A stretch of 64,000 bases of DNA, taken from NCBI RefSeq assembly GCF_032884065.1, contig NC_088872.1, positions 7,310,186 through 7,374,185 of the forward strand, in the 5' to 3' direction. Position numbers and translations under genes: made by a program. Of the stretch, positions 36,111 to 47,800 are shown one piece after another. The DNA is from Artemia franciscana (lineage: Eukaryota; Arthropoda; Branchiopoda; Anostraca; Artemiidae). How positions within the stretch are numbered: the stretch's first letter is position 1; each line of letters begins with the position of its first letter. The notes under the pieces are model-generated. The model did no database searches. It was not told the DNA's origin and worked only from the letters and a program-made list of their open reading frames with translations.

Positions 36111-36436
36111 CACAGTTTGCTGTGTGTTTCTTATTGCCAAAGGAACTGTCTGTCTGACACAGTCTTTATGCAAGATTTTTCGGTTATTTGACTATCGCTT
36201 GTAAACATGTAAATAATACAATTTTCAGAATAAATGGGAGACACTGCTGTCGCTAAATTTGCTTTTGGGTTCGACGAAGCTCTGCGTTTTGCTGGTACTT
36301 TTGATATCTTTGATATCTTATCCCCCCAAGCCCCCCTCCCCGCGCGCGTAAGTCGTTACGTGCCATATTAGTTACGCGCCATTGTAGTTGTGTCCCTGTG
36401 TCCCACCTGTGAATATAGATAGATATATATATATTT

Positions 36437-36721
36437 TTAACTACGTAAAACTTGCGAATATACAGCATTCTTTGCTGTCACATTGTTTGTCCATATAAAT
36501 AGATTGTCAGGTTTACCAACTCTTGAACATGCAACATAATAATTGTCCATGGGAAAACAATCCGTATTCAGATCTGTACCGCATTTTTCTAACGATTGCC
36601 TTTGAGCTTTGTTGATGGTGATTGCTAATCGAACATTCCCTGTGTCCCCGTCGTCATTTATATATCCCCCTGTGCCCCCGGAGTCCCTGTTGTAGTTGTG
36701 TCCCTGTGTCCTGGTCGTCAT
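36437..36721 (-). pseudogene. Helitron helicase C-terminal fragment
   Basis: A 94-codon open frame whose first third is minisatellite. It then encodes VRLAITINKAQRQSLEKCG, NTDCFPMDNYYVACSRV and [20 protein letters not shown]. This is the last part of a Helitron Pif1-type helicase. The usual KAQGQ is KAQRQ here. Compared with the 15-kb copy it keeps the frame better (no stop after QSLE). All catalytic motifs upstream are missing, so it has no helicase activity. Confidence 0.8.
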
Positions 36722-36896
36722 TTATATTCCCTGTGTCCCGGTCGTCATTTGTGTCCCGGTATCCCAGTCTGTAATTTCTCTTTTAGTGTCCTGATCGTCA
36801 TTTATATTCCCTCTGTCCCGGTCTGTAATTTCTCTTTGAGTGTTTTTTCTTTTTAGTTTTTTACCTTTTTTCTTTTTTCAGTTTTCTTTTTCTTCT

Positions 36897-37394
36897 TTAT
36901 TTTTCAGCGTCACTATGAAATACATATCGTCGAACCTTTGTTTTTTTAACTAAAATCTGGTAGGTATTGATGACCTTATCCAAGTCAATATCCCAAACCC
37001 AATCATCATCGCTGTCATTTTCAGTTTTTATATGTTTTGACTCTTGCTGTCCAGGTGGATTTTCATCTAACTGCGCGGTTTTGCGTTCTTTAGCTGCAAG
37101 CCTGTTTTCATGCTGTTCTTGTGATTCCTCGGCACAATTTCTTTTCTTACTTTCTCTATCAGCCGCAAGCCTGTTTTCATGCTGTTCTTGTGATTCCTCG
37201 GCAAGCTTTCTTTTCTTAATTTCTCTATCAGCCGCAAGTCTGTTGGCATAGACTCTTTGAGCAGCTTCCTCGGCTGTTGCCATTGTAGGTTCTTCAGTCA
37301 TTTTACAATTAGAAATTTCTCTGTCAGCGATCTTCTTACAATTAAAAATTTGTCTTTGAACGATTTTCTTAAATACCTGTGTCCTGGTCGTCAT
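36897..37394 (-). CDS. Helitron-encoded charged protein, copy C (165 aa)
   Basis: Third copy, also starting MTTRTQ in minisatellite. It differs from B by several substitutions (EQHENR for EQQENR, KKRNCAEES for KKRKRAEES, WDIDLDKVINTY for WVFDLDKVINAY). It is intact from start to stop. As with A and B, the role is inferred only from membership of the Helitron. Confidence 0.5.
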   Translation of the reverse strand: MTTRTQVFKKIVQRQIFNCKKIADREISNCKMTEEPTMATAEEAAQRVYANRLAADREIKKRKLAEESQEQHENRLAADRESKKRNCAEESQEQHENRLAAKERKTAQLDENPPGQQESKHIKTENDSDDDWVWDIDLDKVINTYQILVKKTKVRRYVFHSDAEK

Positions 37395-37569
37395 TTATAT
37401 TCCCTGTGTCCCGGTATCCCAGTCTGTAATTTCTCTTTGAGTGTCCCGGTCGTCATTTATATTCTCTCTGTCCCGGTCGTCATTTGTGTCCCGGTCTGTA
37501 ATTTCTCTTTGAGTGTTTTTTCTTTTTAGTTTTTTACCTTTTTTCTTTTTTCAGTTTTCTTTTTCTTCT

Positions 37570-38067
37570 TTATTTTTCAGCGTCACTATGAAATACATAT
37601 CGTCGAACCTTTGTTTTCTTAACTAAAATCTGGTAGGCATTGATGACCTTATCCAAGTCAAAAACCCAAACCCAATCATCATCGCTATCATTTTCAGTTT
37701 TTATATGTTTTGACTCTTGCTGTCCAGGTGGATTTTCATCTAACTGCGCGGTTTTGCGTTCTTTAGTCGCAAGCCTGTTTTCTTCCTGTTCTTGTGATTC
37801 CTCGGCACGCTTTCTTTTCTTACTTTCTCTATCAGCCGCAAGCCTGTTTTCTTGCTGTTCTTGTGATTCCTCGGCAAGCTTTCTTTTCTTAATTTCTCTA
37901 TCAGCCGCAAGTCTGTTGGCATAGACTCTTTGAGCAGCTTCCTCGGCTGTTGCCATTGTAGGTTCTTCAGTCATTTTACAATTAGAAATTTCTCTGTCAG
38001 CGATCTTCTTACAGTTAAAAATTTGTCTTTGAACGATTTTCTTAAATACCTGTGTCCTGGTCGTCAT
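37570..38067 (-). CDS. Helitron-encoded charged protein, copy B (165 aa)
   Basis: Nearly the same as copy A after the first residues, but the start MTTRTQ comes from minisatellite sequence, so the initiator differs. It has the same two charged repeats, the NDSDDDWVWVFDLDKVINAY segment and the HSDAEK end. The frame is open through the whole unit, suggesting either recent duplication or constraint. Confidence 0.5.
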   Translation of the reverse strand: MTTRTQVFKKIVQRQIFNCKKIADREISNCKMTEEPTMATAEEAAQRVYANRLAADREIKKRKLAEESQEQQENRLAADRESKKRKRAEESQEQEENRLATKERKTAQLDENPPGQQESKHIKTENDSDDDWVWVFDLDKVINAYQILVKKTKVRRYVFHSDAEK

Positions 38068-38235
38068 TTATATTCCCTGTGTCCCGGTATCCCAGTCTGT
38101 AATTTCTCTTTGAGTGTCCCGGTCGTCATTTATATTCTCTCTGTCCCGGTCGTCATTTGTGTCCCGGTCTGTAATTTCTCTTTGAGTGTTTTTTCTTTTT
38201 AGTTTTTTACCTTTTTTCAGTTTTCTTTTTCTTCT

Positions 38236-38763
38236 TTATTTTTCAGCGTCACTATGAAATACATATCGTCGAACCTTTGTTTTCTTAACTAAAATCTGGT
38301 AGGCATTGATGACATTATCCAAGTCAAAAACCCAAACCCAATCATCATCGCTATCATTTTCAGTTTTTATATGTTTTGACTCTTGCTGTCCAGGTGGATT
38401 TTCATCTAACTGCGCGGTTTTGCGTTCTTTAGTCGCAAGCCTGTTTTCTTCCTGTTCTTGTGATTCCTCGGCACGCTTTCTTTTCTTACTTTCTCTATCA
38501 GCCGCAAGCCTGTTTTCTTGCTGTTCTTGTGATTCCTCGGCACGCTTTCTTTTCTTACTTTCTCTATCAGCCGCAAGTTTTTTGGCATAGACTCTTTGAG
38601 CAGCTTCCTCGGCTGTTGCCATTGTAGGTTCTTCAGTCATTTTACAATTAAACATTTTTCCGTCCACGATCTTCTTACAATTAAAAATGTGTCTTTGAAC
38701 GATTTTCTTAAATACTTTTAATGACGTCATCGTCATAACAAACAATGCGACAAGTAACTTCAT
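38236..38763 (-). CDS. Helitron-encoded charged protein, copy A (175 aa)
   Basis: The frame starts MKLLVALFVMTMTSLKVFKK about 85 bases inside the Helitron head. It then has MTEEPTMATAEEAAQRVYA, two ~22-residue repeats of ENRLAADRESKKRKRAEESQ type, an acidic patch NDSDDDWVW, and the tail ILVKKTKVRRYVFHSDAEK. Basic/acidic 'RLAxxRExxRxxRAEESxEQ' repeats are typical of the N-terminus of arthropod Helitron proteins; here they end in a stop instead of leading to Rep. It is the only copy with the original upstream context. Expression is unknown. Confidence 0.55.
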   Translation of the reverse strand: MKLLVALFVMTMTSLKVFKKIVQRHIFNCKKIVDGKMFNCKMTEEPTMATAEEAAQRVYAKKLAADRESKKRKRAEESQEQQENRLAADRESKKRKRAEESQEQEENRLATKERKTAQLDENPPGQQESKHIKTENDSDDDWVWVFDLDNVINAYQILVKKTKVRRYVFHSDAEK

Positions 38764-38850
38764 GACGACCTGACGTCACTCGACAGATAGACAGACAGAC
38801 AGACAGACAACTTATTTTTATATATATATAGATATTTTTATATATATAGA

Positions 38851-40313: not shown

Positions 40314-41886
40314 GATAAGAGGACGCCAGAAAAAAACTTGAGAAGGGTCCCCCCCCTTGGCCCCTAGATCAGCCAGTTAGACACGTGTAAAGAATTTAAG
40401 TTATTTCTTAAATTTATCATAACTTGGAAATAAGCTTCCCGCTGAACTAGCTTATACGGATTTTACTATCGTGCCACCGAATTATACAGGAAGTAATTCC
40501 GGTTGGATTTCCAAAAGAGTCGGGAAAAGCTGCTGTTAATTAATTTGGTCAAAGTTCAGCTGCTTTCGCTGTTAAGATTGTCTTCACTTTCTATTATTGT
40601 GTTACTGTAAGGAGATGTAGATGGGAATCAAATCCCTTTTCAACTTTCTGTTACTTTCCGTTCCGTTGATAAGAGGGTGCCAGAAAAAACTTGAGAAGGG
40701 TTCCCACTCGGCCCGTAGATCAGCCAGTGAGACACGTGTAAAGAATTTAAGTTATTTTATGAAGTTTATCATAACCTAGAAATAAGCTGCCCGTTGTACT
40801 AGCTTATACGGATTTTATTATCGTGCCACCGAATTATACAGGAAATAATTCCGATTGGACTTTCAAAAGAATCGGGGAAAAGCTGCCTTTAACTAATTTG
40901 GTCAAAGTTCAGCTGCTTTCGCTGTCAAGATTGTCTTCACTTTCTATTATTGTGTTACTGTAAGGAGATGTAGACGGGAATCAAATCCCTTTTCAACTTT
41001 CTGTTCCGTTGATAAGAGGGTGCCAGAAAAAACTTGAGAAGGGTCCCCCCCCCTCGGCCCGTAGATCAGCCAGTGAGACATGTGCAAAGGATTTAAGTTA
41101 TTTTATGAAGTTTATCATAACCTAGAAATAAGCTACCCGTTGTACTAGCTTATACGGATTTTATTATCGTGCCACCGAATTATACAGGAAATAATTCCGG
41201 TTGGACTTCCAAAAGAATCGCGGAAAAGCTGCTCTTAACTAATTTGGTCAAAGTTCAGCTGCTTTCGCTGTTAAGATTGTCTTCACTTTCTATTATTGTG
41301 TTACTATAAGGAGATGTAGACGGGAATCAAATCCCTTTTCAACTTTCTGTTACTTTCCATTCCGCTGATAAGAGGGCGCCAGAAAAAAAACTTGAGAAGG
41401 GTACCTCCCCCTCGGCCCGTAGATCAGCCAGTGAGACACGTGTAAAGAATTTAAGTTATTTTATGAAGTTTATCATAACCTGGAAATAAGCTGCCCGTTG
41501 TACTAGCTTATACGGATTTTATTATCGTGCCACCGAATTATACAGGAAATAATTCCGGTTGGACTTCCAAAAGAGTCGGGGAAAAGCTGCTCTTAACTAA
41601 TTTGGTCAAAATTCAGCTGCTTTCGCTGTTAAGATTGTCTTCACTTTCTATTATTGTGTTACTGTAAGGAGATGTAGATGGAAATCAAGTCTCTTTTCAA
41701 TACCTTCTTCTTCTTGTTCCACTCTCCCTTCCGTTGATAAGAGGGCACCAGAAAAAACTTGAGAAGGCCCCCCCTCAGCCCCTAGATCAGTCAGTGAGAC
41801 ACGTGTAAAGAATTTAAGTTATTTTCTTAAGTTTATCATAACTTGGAAATGAGCTGGCCGTTGTACTAGCTTATACGGATTTTATT
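40314..41886. repeat. Satellite array, ~355-bp unit, 4.4 copies
   Basis: gataagagg begins units at 40314, 40668, 41011, 41367 and 41736 (unit lengths 354, 343, 356 and 369). The fifth unit stops after gcttatacggattttatt at about 41884. Shared blocks include cttgagaagggtcccc, atcagccagtgagacacg, tatcgtgccaccgaattata and ctgctttcgctgttaagatt. Differences are mostly small indels in C- and A-runs. No conserved open frame. Confidence 0.92.
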
Positions 41887-44566: not shown

Positions 44567-47435
44567 TTATTTCAAAGGGGATATCCGGATGGGACGATTC
44601 CAAATTTTTCGCCCATTGAGCCGCAATGCTCTTCCAACGTCAGCAGGCGAATCAAAACAAACTCTTGCCTCGTCTGACGCGAAACCATCGTCTGAAAATT
44701 TTCGGGCAATTTGTTCCTTTCTCAGCCCAAATTCATCAAAAAACAACAAAATGTCTTCAATTCCAGCTTTATATGGTATATTTTGAAGGCAAACAACACA
44801 ACGAGGGTCGGTAAAATTCGGTGGCTTAGCATCCATAAATTGTTCTGGTGGGAAAAGTGGTCTTGGTTCAAGACCTCTAGGATCCATTGGTCTGAAGGGT
44901 CGGCTGTTCGACAATAGAGAAGGACGCATTCTTGGTTCTTGCCCTCTTAGGCCTCCTGGAAAACCAGGACCCGGCTGACGGGGGTAAATACCTAGTAGAG
45001 AGGGTCTTGCCCGTAAAGATGGATGTAAAGGCCCTCTTGAGCCAAGAAGAGATCTCTCTGGCTGTTTTGGTGGCTCAATAACATTTTGTTTTGGTTCTTC
45101 TACTATGGGTTTATTTTCTTCAATTTCTTCTTCTTTAGTTGCCCCCACAATTTCTTCATTTTCGTCAGAGGGCTCTGTCTCTTCAACTTCCATGTCAACA
45201 TCACCAATGGAATCGGCAATTTGTGGAACATAAGTTGCGGCTTTTTTCCTGGAAATAGTTGATACTTCAATCGTATTTAGACCCATCATGCTGCCATTTT
45301 TGGCAGTAGCCTTTTCTGCGTCTTCGGGATTTTGAAACTCAATGATTGCATCACCAGAAGGATCGTTTGAGCTGTCAAGCAGAAAATGTATCCGAACCGG
45401 GAAAACACCGGCGTCAGAGAAAAAATCAAGAATATCACGCTCGGTGACTGTTGGTGGAAGTCCCTTGACGAAAGTTGTCTCACTTGCAGGACCCTTTGGC
45501 TTTGTTTCATCTATAGTAGGCTTGGCAGTGTCACGAATCTTGGATTTAAAGTATTCTTCGACAGGGGCAAGCGCGACTGGAACAACCTTATCATCAAATA
45601 ATACGCCACTGTAAAGGAGTTCACGGGCCTTTTCTGCTTCCTGTAAAGTTGAGAAGCGAACGTATCCAATAAGACAATTTGGATAATTGGGTGTAACCAG
45701 CTCTGCAGACACATCCAAGATGTCAAAGCCACTGAGAGCCACTTTCAAGCTTTCAACAGTAGCATCATTTGGCAAATTTCTGACACAAAAACAGCTATCA
45801 TAAAGCATTTCACGATGGAACTTGTTCGGTTGATAATCATCAATCGCCTGGTCGAATTCTTTGGTTGATGCATCGCTCAAAATAACTGTATCGTCTAGTG
45901 ACGTGTTCAAAGCCTTCATTTTGTCACTGACAGAATCAAAGCGGACGTAGGCAATACTGGCCAACTGGCCATCAAGGGCTGATATCAACCGAATATTATC
46001 GGCTTTTATGTAAATCCCCCGAAAGAACGAACGAATAGCTTTGTACGTCAAACGTGGAAATCTGCCAAACACTCTTATTACAGTACTCGCTTGAGTTGGT
46101 TTTGCTTCGCTTTCTTTTCTCTCAGACTGCGCCCATGTTTTTTTCGTGTCAGAACCATTCTGTGGAAAAGGTTGAAATTCATTAGCACCGAAATTTGGTG
46201 CCAGTTGTAGCAATGGCACTTTAGGAGATGGAATTTTCGCCACATCTGGCACTTCTTGTTCAAGTGGACTAAATCTAGTTTTAGTCTCTCTAATCGTGGT
46301 AGATTTGTCCACGTAAGGGACCTGGGACTCAAGTGGACTAAATCTACTTTTAGCCTCCCTAACCATGGATACTTTTTCATTTGAAGGCATACCAGGACCA
46401 TCTCTTTGTGGTGCACGGTCTTTTGGAGCTTGCTTCAATAAAGGCTGAGCTTTGTCTTGCTCACGAACAGGTGCAGTATCTTCTTGCTTAGGTGGTGCCG
46501 GTGATGGGATTGGTGCAGCTATGGTGTCTTTTCGATAGGTACCATCTCGATACTTGACATCCTTTTCAAAGCTTTCCTTACGTTTATCCCTCCCGAACTC
46601 GTCTAAGTCTCTTTTCCTCTGTGCAGGAGAAGTTCTTCTGTGTCGCCTGTCCCTAGATCTTGATCTTGAGCGCCTGTCTCTGCTTCGGCTTCTGTCCCAC
46701 CGCCGACGATCACGCCTTTCCTTTGAACGGCTCCTTTTTTTATCACGGTCGGGCGATGATTTAGACTTTGGACCGTAACGATAACGATCTCTCTCTTCCT
46801 CTTCCTCAGGTTTGCCCTTTTCTTCAGCAGCTTTTCTTTCTCTAATCATCGAGGACTTAGGGGCTGAAGCTATTTCAACTTCAGGTTTGGTTAAAGCTGG
46901 CCTGCTTGGTGGTGCTTGTGGTAACGGTGGCTGGGCATTAGGCGTCGCAGTCATTGGTGAAATTCTTTGTTGTTGTTGTTGTTGAGGGGCTCCAGTAGCT
47001 GTTGGAGCAAATCCAAAGGCTGCTAAGCTTTCATTTGACATTGCAGCAGCATTAGTTGTTGGTTTTTCCTGTTTTAACGCAGCAGTTTGAGCGAAGGCAG
47101 CCGCTTGAAAAAGTGCAGCATAGGTTGCAGCCAACTGCGGATTCTGCAACGCGGACAGTAGGCCAGCAGGATCAAGGGGCATTCCCAACAAAGGATTTGC
47201 AATAGGCATAGTTGGCAGAGGACCCATACCACCCATATTAGGAATTGGCATAGATGACATAGGTGTGGGCTGAGTTGGAGTCGGTTTTGGTGGAATTGGA
47301 GCCACTGGATGACCGCTTCTTGTTTGCTCAATAACTCGCTGCATCTCTGCTCTTGAGCTTAAGAGAAGACGGACTGAAGCGTCTTGTAGTCTCTCTCCAT
47401 TTAACGCCATAGCTTGTCGGGCATCTTCGTCTGAG
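44567..47435 (-). CDS. RBM12: RBM12-like RNA-binding protein, large terminal exon
   Basis: The acceptor TTTTCTTCTAG (47446-47436) starts the exon one base before TCA-GAC; a second AG at 47432-47431 is possible. The frame runs to a stop at 44569-44567, 947 codons from the first internal ATG (47410). It begins inside RRM1 (SDEDARQAM...LLLSSRAEMQ, as in RBM12). Next come a Pro/Ala-rich linker with Q6 (about 35-175), an Arg/Ser-Asp region (about 220-262), RRM2 (443-525), RRM3 (540-613), RRM4 (644-718), an acidic stretch (735-775), a Pro/Gly/Arg region (785-865) and RRM5 (870-945). The five-RRM order matches RBM12, a nuclear RNA-binding protein. Exon 1 with the RRM1 start was not found. RBM12 versus RBM12B is not settled. 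Confidence 0.8.
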
Positions 47436-47800
47436 CTAGAAGAAAATCAACAAGTTTTACACCCATAGCAAAATTATTTTATTAAAAATTATTTTGCAAG
47501 CTTCACGCAAATAATTTCCTTCTGATTCGAACACACTTTAATAGTTATTGATTAGCACTGAAATTTTGAACTTACTTATTCATGAACTTACTTATTATTT
47601 TTCATTGACAGGGCAGGAAGGGAGGAAACACTAACACTAATTGTGAAAGATACAGTGAAACTAAACTTAACTTGATTTCATCCCCTCCACTTTTACGTTC
47701 ATAAATAGTTTTCATTCGACTCTTATTAGTTGACTTATTCGAGCAGAGCAAGCGAAAAAATGTCTATTTACTTGCTTCAGGAACGGAACCCCTTACTTAC

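Follow-up and report, generated by a model that had tools for sequence, protein, structure and literature searches.

The Helitron copy and its three units

We analysed a stretch of 64,000 nucleotides of the Artemia franciscana genome (contig NC_088872.1, positions 7,310,186 to 7,374,185), here called the window. Its minus strand carries three head-to-tail units, U1 to U3. Every unit contains a leader and an open frame, followed by an A-rich stretch and a minisatellite. The element that holds the units is probably a non-autonomous Helitron of a Helraiser-type family, truncated at its 3' end. The features are listed below in window coordinates.

about 36322..38850, minus: whole element, a putative 3'-truncated non-autonomous Helitron copy, with its 5' end at 38850 and its 3' limit where homology to the family stops
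38716..38850, minus: 5' terminal sequence and leader (TC, AT tract and AAGTTGTCTGTC ... GACGTCATTAAAAG)
38049..38715, minus: unit U3, first in the element, head type X, 667 bp, with a private 7-bp deletion
37376..38048, minus: unit U2, middle, 673 bp, starting like U1 and finishing like U3
36703..37375, minus: unit U1, last in the element, head type Y, 673 bp
38236..38763, minus: open frame A, 175 aa, with the shared internal ATG (MTEEPTM)
37570..38067, minus: open frame B, 165 aa
36897..37394, minus: open frame C, 165 aa
37092..37244, minus: 69-bp (23-codon) STPR-like repeats of U1, with counterparts at 37768-37917 and 38434-38577
38034..38061, minus: tandem junction U3/U2, the minisatellite ending in ACACAGG followed directly by TATTTAAG
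37361-37388, minus: tandem junction U2/U1
36440..36640, minus: C-terminal piece of a RepHel helicase, 63 aligned codons, immediately after the minisatellite, 79% identical to the RepHel of locus L061 in the same genome
15191..16176, plus: second non-autonomous copy, with TC and hairpin plus CTAG ends

The head-to-tail repetition of the units is far beyond chance. When the region was compared with the window by blastn, the unit repeat gave 94.7% identity over 1365 columns, and the pairwise identity of the units is about 90-95%. The first-pass annotation had described three head-to-tail units, each with an open frame and a minisatellite, and this was borne out by the coordinates and by the frames of 165, 165 and 175 aa. 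An exact period of 673 bp had also been proposed and was rejected, since the spacing is 673 bp and then 666 bp, the right unit (U3) being 7 bp short. U1 and U2 are equal at 673 bp by coincidence, because two 18-bp minisatellite indels cancel: compared with U2, U1 is 18 bp shorter at one site and 18 bp longer at a second. The interval first assigned to the element, 36838..38763, covers part of it; the element goes further, to 38850 at the 5' end and to about 36322 at the broken 3' end.

The internal ATG (MTEEPTM) is common to all three frames, and the residues downstream of it align with the RepHel N-terminus. Frames B and C had been read as starting in the minisatellite and frame A in the original head. 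Because all three share the internal ATG, this contrast need not carry meaning, and the minisatellite ATG is a doubtful candidate for a new start codon.

At its 5' end the window copy reads TCTATATATA, with the T of TC at 38850 and a host A before it (GGCTAA, then TCTATATATA). The TC is inserted after an A, as expected of a Helitron 5' end. The first approximately 18 bases of the 5' terminus are duplicated in tandem at 38811-38850. A 3' hairpin with a CTRR end followed by T was sought in the window copy and was absent, and the family homology ends at about 36322, ahead of the hairpin and CTAG. Because the copy is without this 3' end, its membership was drawn from homology to intact relatives, and it was filed only as a truncated relative. 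The hairpin and CTRR/T feature is present in four copies with long RepHel frames, in the second window copy and in L070. In the second window copy the hairpin folds at -27.8 kcal/mol versus a shuffle mean of -11.9, and no cassette was found in that copy. The L070/L071 element is flanked by A and T, an observation that bears on insertion between A and T. Rep is absent from the window element, in agreement with the first-pass annotation. The accompanying statement that the helicase was lost is close to correct, except that its last 63 codons are kept.

Beyond the element, a 358-bp tandem repeat of 4.4 copies lies at 40314-41886. At 44567-47446 the minus strand has a 959-aa open frame that encodes an RRM domain (E 1.8e-26) and is likely a host RNA-binding protein gene. 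Scans of the window for tRNA and Rfam families found nothing.

RepHel relatives and the small cassette protein

A search of the genome with the Helitron Rep-domain profile gave 7435 first-look candidates, and 150 were scored, with every listed match above the Pfam cut-off. Seven regions around Rep matches were taken, and four of them (L061-L064) hold frames of 1571-1688 aa that run from the repeats through the helicase end. Upstream of each of the four lies the 5' sequence TCTATATATATAAAAATAAG, and on the 3' side there is a hairpin-CTAG end followed by T. A genome search for relatives had been suggested by the first-pass annotation, and it thus yielded RepHel frames of up to 1688 aa in the same genome. 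The 1688-aa frame of L061 contains PF14214, PF05970 and PF21530 (Rep, PIF1) together with STPR domains, and is a RepHel by domain content. It matches Helraiser at E 3.3e-266 over query residues 221-1668. Helentrons and HINEs are marked by a Helentron-type protein with an endonuclease domain and by subterminal inverted repeats. The Pfam scan of the L061 frame showed no endonuclease family. The Helitron identity first proposed for the window element is supported through these relatives, by the RepHel frames, the Helraiser match and the matching ends.

The Artemia franciscana elements resemble Helraiser (Helibat; PDB 7lcc) in the L061 RepHel match and in the 5' TC, 3' hairpin and CTAG ends. Unlike Helraiser, their RepHel has a long run of STPR-like 23-aa repeats, and their non-autonomous copies carry tandem coding cassettes with a minisatellite. 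Residues 17 to about 100 of Helraiser align weakly with the end of the L061 repeat run. According to the accessible text of PMC4778049, Helraiser mobilises some non-autonomous relatives in trans, and Helraiser proteins missing their first 489 aa failed to bind single-stranded DNA, a result that says nothing on the cassette piece alone. In a motif count that may miss diverged repeats, the number of 23-aa repeats was 4 to 11 in L061-L064 and L066; other loci in the same count, with shorter or partial frames, had 0 to 8. Since repeat number varies among the long RepHel frames, the transposase N-terminus seems to expand and contract. At L068:1072-1929, a RepHel-type N-terminus and one of cassette type are fused in frame within a single open frame, which we take as a further sign of module shuffling.

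The cassette protein was 66% identical to the RepHel N-terminus over 70 aa, and its nested 69-bp repeats encode 23 aa each and correspond to the RepHel STPR repeats. Judged by these alignments, the small protein is the RepHel N-terminus, with STPR-like 23-aa repeats, joined to a C-terminal tail. PF21107 (STPR) was found in the L061 RepHel in 5 stretches (E 4.1e-15, 56.4 bits), and the RepHel N-terminus matched FMBP-1 chain 5d23 at 0.00056. The cassette proteins reached 14.7-15.9 bits versus a PF21107 cut-off of 27, so they are labelled only as STPR-like; the Pfam scan of the cassette gave no family above its cut-off. The short form at L018 has a RepHel-type start, one repeat and the tail of the cassette, and its Pfam scan gave no family at E 0.001. 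From its make-up, this form looks like an intermediate between RepHel and cassette.

The structure model of the cassette has a mean pLDDT of 66.5, with one long helix and a low-confidence tail. The cassette is like the STPR proteins (FMBP-1) in its 23-aa Lys/Arg/Glu-rich repeats and in the long helix of the model, and unlike them in holding only about 2-3 repeats, which fall below the cut-off by themselves. A literature search for STPR together with Helitron returned no paper linking both. As a long shot, the cassette might be a piece of the transposase that has become an independent DNA-binding peptide of the STPR type. Such a peptide would bind Helitron DNA in trans and help or compete with RepHel; two or three cassettes would then give a dosage advantage, and the tandem would be kept at the element level.

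The tandem junction and the hybrid middle unit

The junction between minisatellite and cassette was searched across the genome at one mismatch or fewer. It was found at 2854 places, and a reversed-pattern control gave 0. Only 95 of these places are exact matches, two of them in the window, and one variant accounts for 2690 of the 2854. The X head pattern was found at 1157 places. As the Y pattern (2854) outnumbers the X pattern, these counts are no census of dimers. Same-strand junction neighbours within 2 kb were counted by eye; they occurred at 3 of 92 loci among the 95 exact matches listed, with the window locus included, and at 6 of 93 loci among 100 matches listed separately.

We then considered the 29 non-window loci with a leader module, a set that leaves out L001, L002 and L004, which are the window locus itself. 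At 15 of these loci, 17 leader modules are preceded by the minisatellite and are of junction type. In 11 of these 17 modules the 14 bases ahead of the junction are identical to those in the window, and in the remaining six they are not. An X-type head is also present at 13 of the 15 loci. A full cassette body follows 7 of the 17 junction-type modules. The leader stands alone in the other 10, some of which have a tRNA-like segment in place of the cassette body, so a junction is in most cases no sure sign of a second complete cassette. At L016, at L022 and in the L070/L071 element, arrays have at least three modules. The L070/L071 element is complete and 3217 bp long; it lies between A and T, has TC and CTAG ends and contains three junctions, and its parts are 91-99% identical. 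In the leader tree the Y units form no clean clade, and L005, L008, L010 and L012, which have no preceding minisatellite, sit beside them. Because the junction is family-wide, the founding duplication would predate the spread of the family and would have happened in the family rather than at the window locus.

The tRNA-like segment was observed after the second leader in the related Helitrons L020, L021, L029 and L070 (for example L070:2423-2503, minus). Among 5 sources scanned, the Rfam tRNA family exceeded its cut-off in L021 (one place), L029 (one place) and L070 (three places), and ARAGORN called tRNAs in L020, in L021 and three times in L070 (4 sources scanned). The segment resembles a SINE head that a Helitron picked up and then amplified inside its array. 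Head-to-tail neighbours were also observed, in which a Helitron hairpin end is followed by the 5' part of the next Helitron, directly in L026 (638-824) and within about 25 bases in L003 (2644-2814).

Tandem repeats within Helitrons have been described. The accessible part of a 2025 review (PMC12628747) states that Helitrons often hold satellite-like arrays in their centre. It also describes plant Helitron arrays with several 5' ends and one 3' end, attributed to terminator loss on the circle (Xiong et al. 2016). Transposons have been discussed as sources of tandem repeats in general (PMC9659126, in its accessible part). As far as these sources describe them, such Helitrons or Helentrons with internal satellite arrays and the plant arrays share with the window copy the internal tandem repeats between single ends and the repeated 5'-derived material. 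The window unit is unlike them in being a protein-coding cassette of about 670 bp that ends in a minisatellite. Its start also lies within the element rather than at the 5' terminus, and thousands of places carry its junction. Literature searches that were not aimed at such cassettes, and that covered titles, the starts of abstracts and few subscription papers, found no tandem RepHel-derived cassettes or STPR repeats in Helitrons. Searches for Helitrons with internal tandem repeats and unequal crossing-over, or for Rep-Hel with a minisatellite, found nothing.

By analogy with the plant arrays, the units could have been multiplied during rolling-circle replication past a lost 3' terminator. The window copy has one 5' end, several internal units and no terminator, and L070/L071 likewise has several internal units and one 3' end. 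However, the window tandem excludes the 5' terminus, and L070/L071 keeps its terminator yet has an array. One circle would also be expected to give like units and no single-switch hybrid, and the hybrid middle unit described below does not follow from this model. We regard it as a doubtful source of the window units, and one that may explain the founding duplication.

The middle unit U2 resembles the left copy (U1) over its first quarter and the right copy (U3) thereafter, with one switch.

37853..37876, minus: 24-bp interval with the U2 switch point, inside the 69-bp repeat region, bounded by unit columns 173 and 198 (window 37877 and 37852)

Comparison of the three units gave 31 informative events. 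Before unit column 198, U2 agrees with U1 in every one of 11 events, and from that column onward it agrees with U3 in 18 of 20. The chance probability of the first 11 events falling so was 9.2e-7, a value that treats neighbouring columns as independent and drops a U2-private site (column 36) and one end column. Ahead of the switch, U2 differs from U1 by 1 substitution, and past it U2 differs from U3 by 1 substitution and the 7-bp deletion. U1 and U3 differ from each other by 28 substitutions, two 18-bp indels and the 7-bp deletion. The family-wide diagnostic columns for X and Y gave the same pattern: U1 is Y at 9 of 10 and U3 is X at 10 of 10, and U2 is Y at 7 of 8 up to column 136 and X at both later ones (197 and 266). 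A dimer X-Y recombining out of register would give exactly X, Y-to-X and Y. These results suggest that the third unit is probably a recent local event, a hybrid of its neighbours. In a by-eye count of 152 genome matches, two close long same-strand matches occurred at four other loci and three only here.

The first-pass annotation had favoured a very recent triplication of a single cassette in place. In line with this, the identity of the units is about 90-95%, and in the tree the three window units cluster with one another in their body segments (support 0.83). However, the junction and the X/Y leader difference occur at other loci, and 28 substitutions separate U1 from U3, whereas U2 is near-identical to parts of each. 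Local triplication of one unit was rejected on these grounds and is highly improbable. Very recent amplification applies to the third unit only, given the U2 mosaic, and not to the tandem junction, which is family-wide.

The third unit could also be an assembly artefact, produced by an out-of-register join between two haplotypes of an X-Y dimer. Such misjoining yields exactly X, a Y-to-X hybrid and Y, a false tandem gives the identical mosaic, and the private differences (two substitutions and 7 bp) would act as heterozygosity. The locus lies within a 51.7-Mb contig, however, and arrays of at least three modules occur at other loci. We consider the artefact unlikely.

Open frames and the proposed history

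The first-pass annotation had offered selection on the small protein as a reason for the three open frames. We examined 35 full units, a sample ranked by protein similarity. Nineteen are open, 3 of them in the window, and 16 of the 32 non-window units are broken by a stop or frameshift. Singleton changes in the 35 units were 52 synonymous, 118 missense and 14 nonsense versus 38.2, 131.7 and 14.1 expected (p = 0.012). In a Rep-domain sample picked by profile search (36 copies, 29 distinct), they were 21, 32 and 1 versus 13.7, 36.6 and 3.7 expected (p = 0.023). Changes common to several cassette copies were 40 missense or nonsense to 12 synonymous, near the neutral ratio, versus 25 to 17 for Rep. 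NG86 dN/dS rested on few changes in the window frames; dN was below dS in the B-C pair (0.024/0.046) and above it in the other two (0.029/0.023 and 0.054/0.046).

A small STPR-like protein under selection, at the element or the host level, would keep all three frames open and would fit the synonymous excess and the B-C pair. Against this, half of the non-window units are broken despite their choice by protein similarity, and the nonsense singletons, matching expectation, argue against frame upkeep in most copies. The shared-change ratio and the other two window pairs point the same way. Nor are the open frames three independent cases, since frame B, in the middle, is a near-identical recombinant of its two neighbours. 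Selection was rejected as the cause of the open frames, and we judge it very unlikely; the weak synonymous excess in the cassette may reflect sampling, or selection in source copies.

We favour as likely a history that joins a founding duplication in the family, spread by transposition and a local step from dimer to trimer. In this history, the repeated cassette is the start of the RepHel gene (leader and STPR-like 23-aa repeats) fused to a short tail with a stop. After the tail come an A-rich stretch and then the 27-bp minisatellite, which leads into the helicase codons of the C-terminus. At an early stage of the family, a tandem duplication would have copied the segment that extends from TATTTAAG to ...GACCAGGACACAGG. 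Transposition, presumably by RepHel in trans, would then have carried junction-bearing copies across the genome, to the places counted above. At the window locus, out-of-register exchange or slippage during replication would later have turned a dimer X-Y into a trimer whose middle unit starts as Y and ends as X, the pattern observed. Unequal exchange and slippage have an identical sequence outcome. The small frames would be remnants of the RepHel N-terminus, with no function of their own needed.

Read in this way, the locus would trace a route from the coding part of a transposon to a tandem array, through a founding duplication with a recurring junction, spread by transposition and a local out-of-register exchange with a readable hybrid. 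The STPR-like repeats at the N-terminus of the Helitron transposase vary in number between copies and have been split off into many short reading frames. With its many long RepHel frames, this genome is suited to asking whether such arrays seed satellite DNA or alter transposition.
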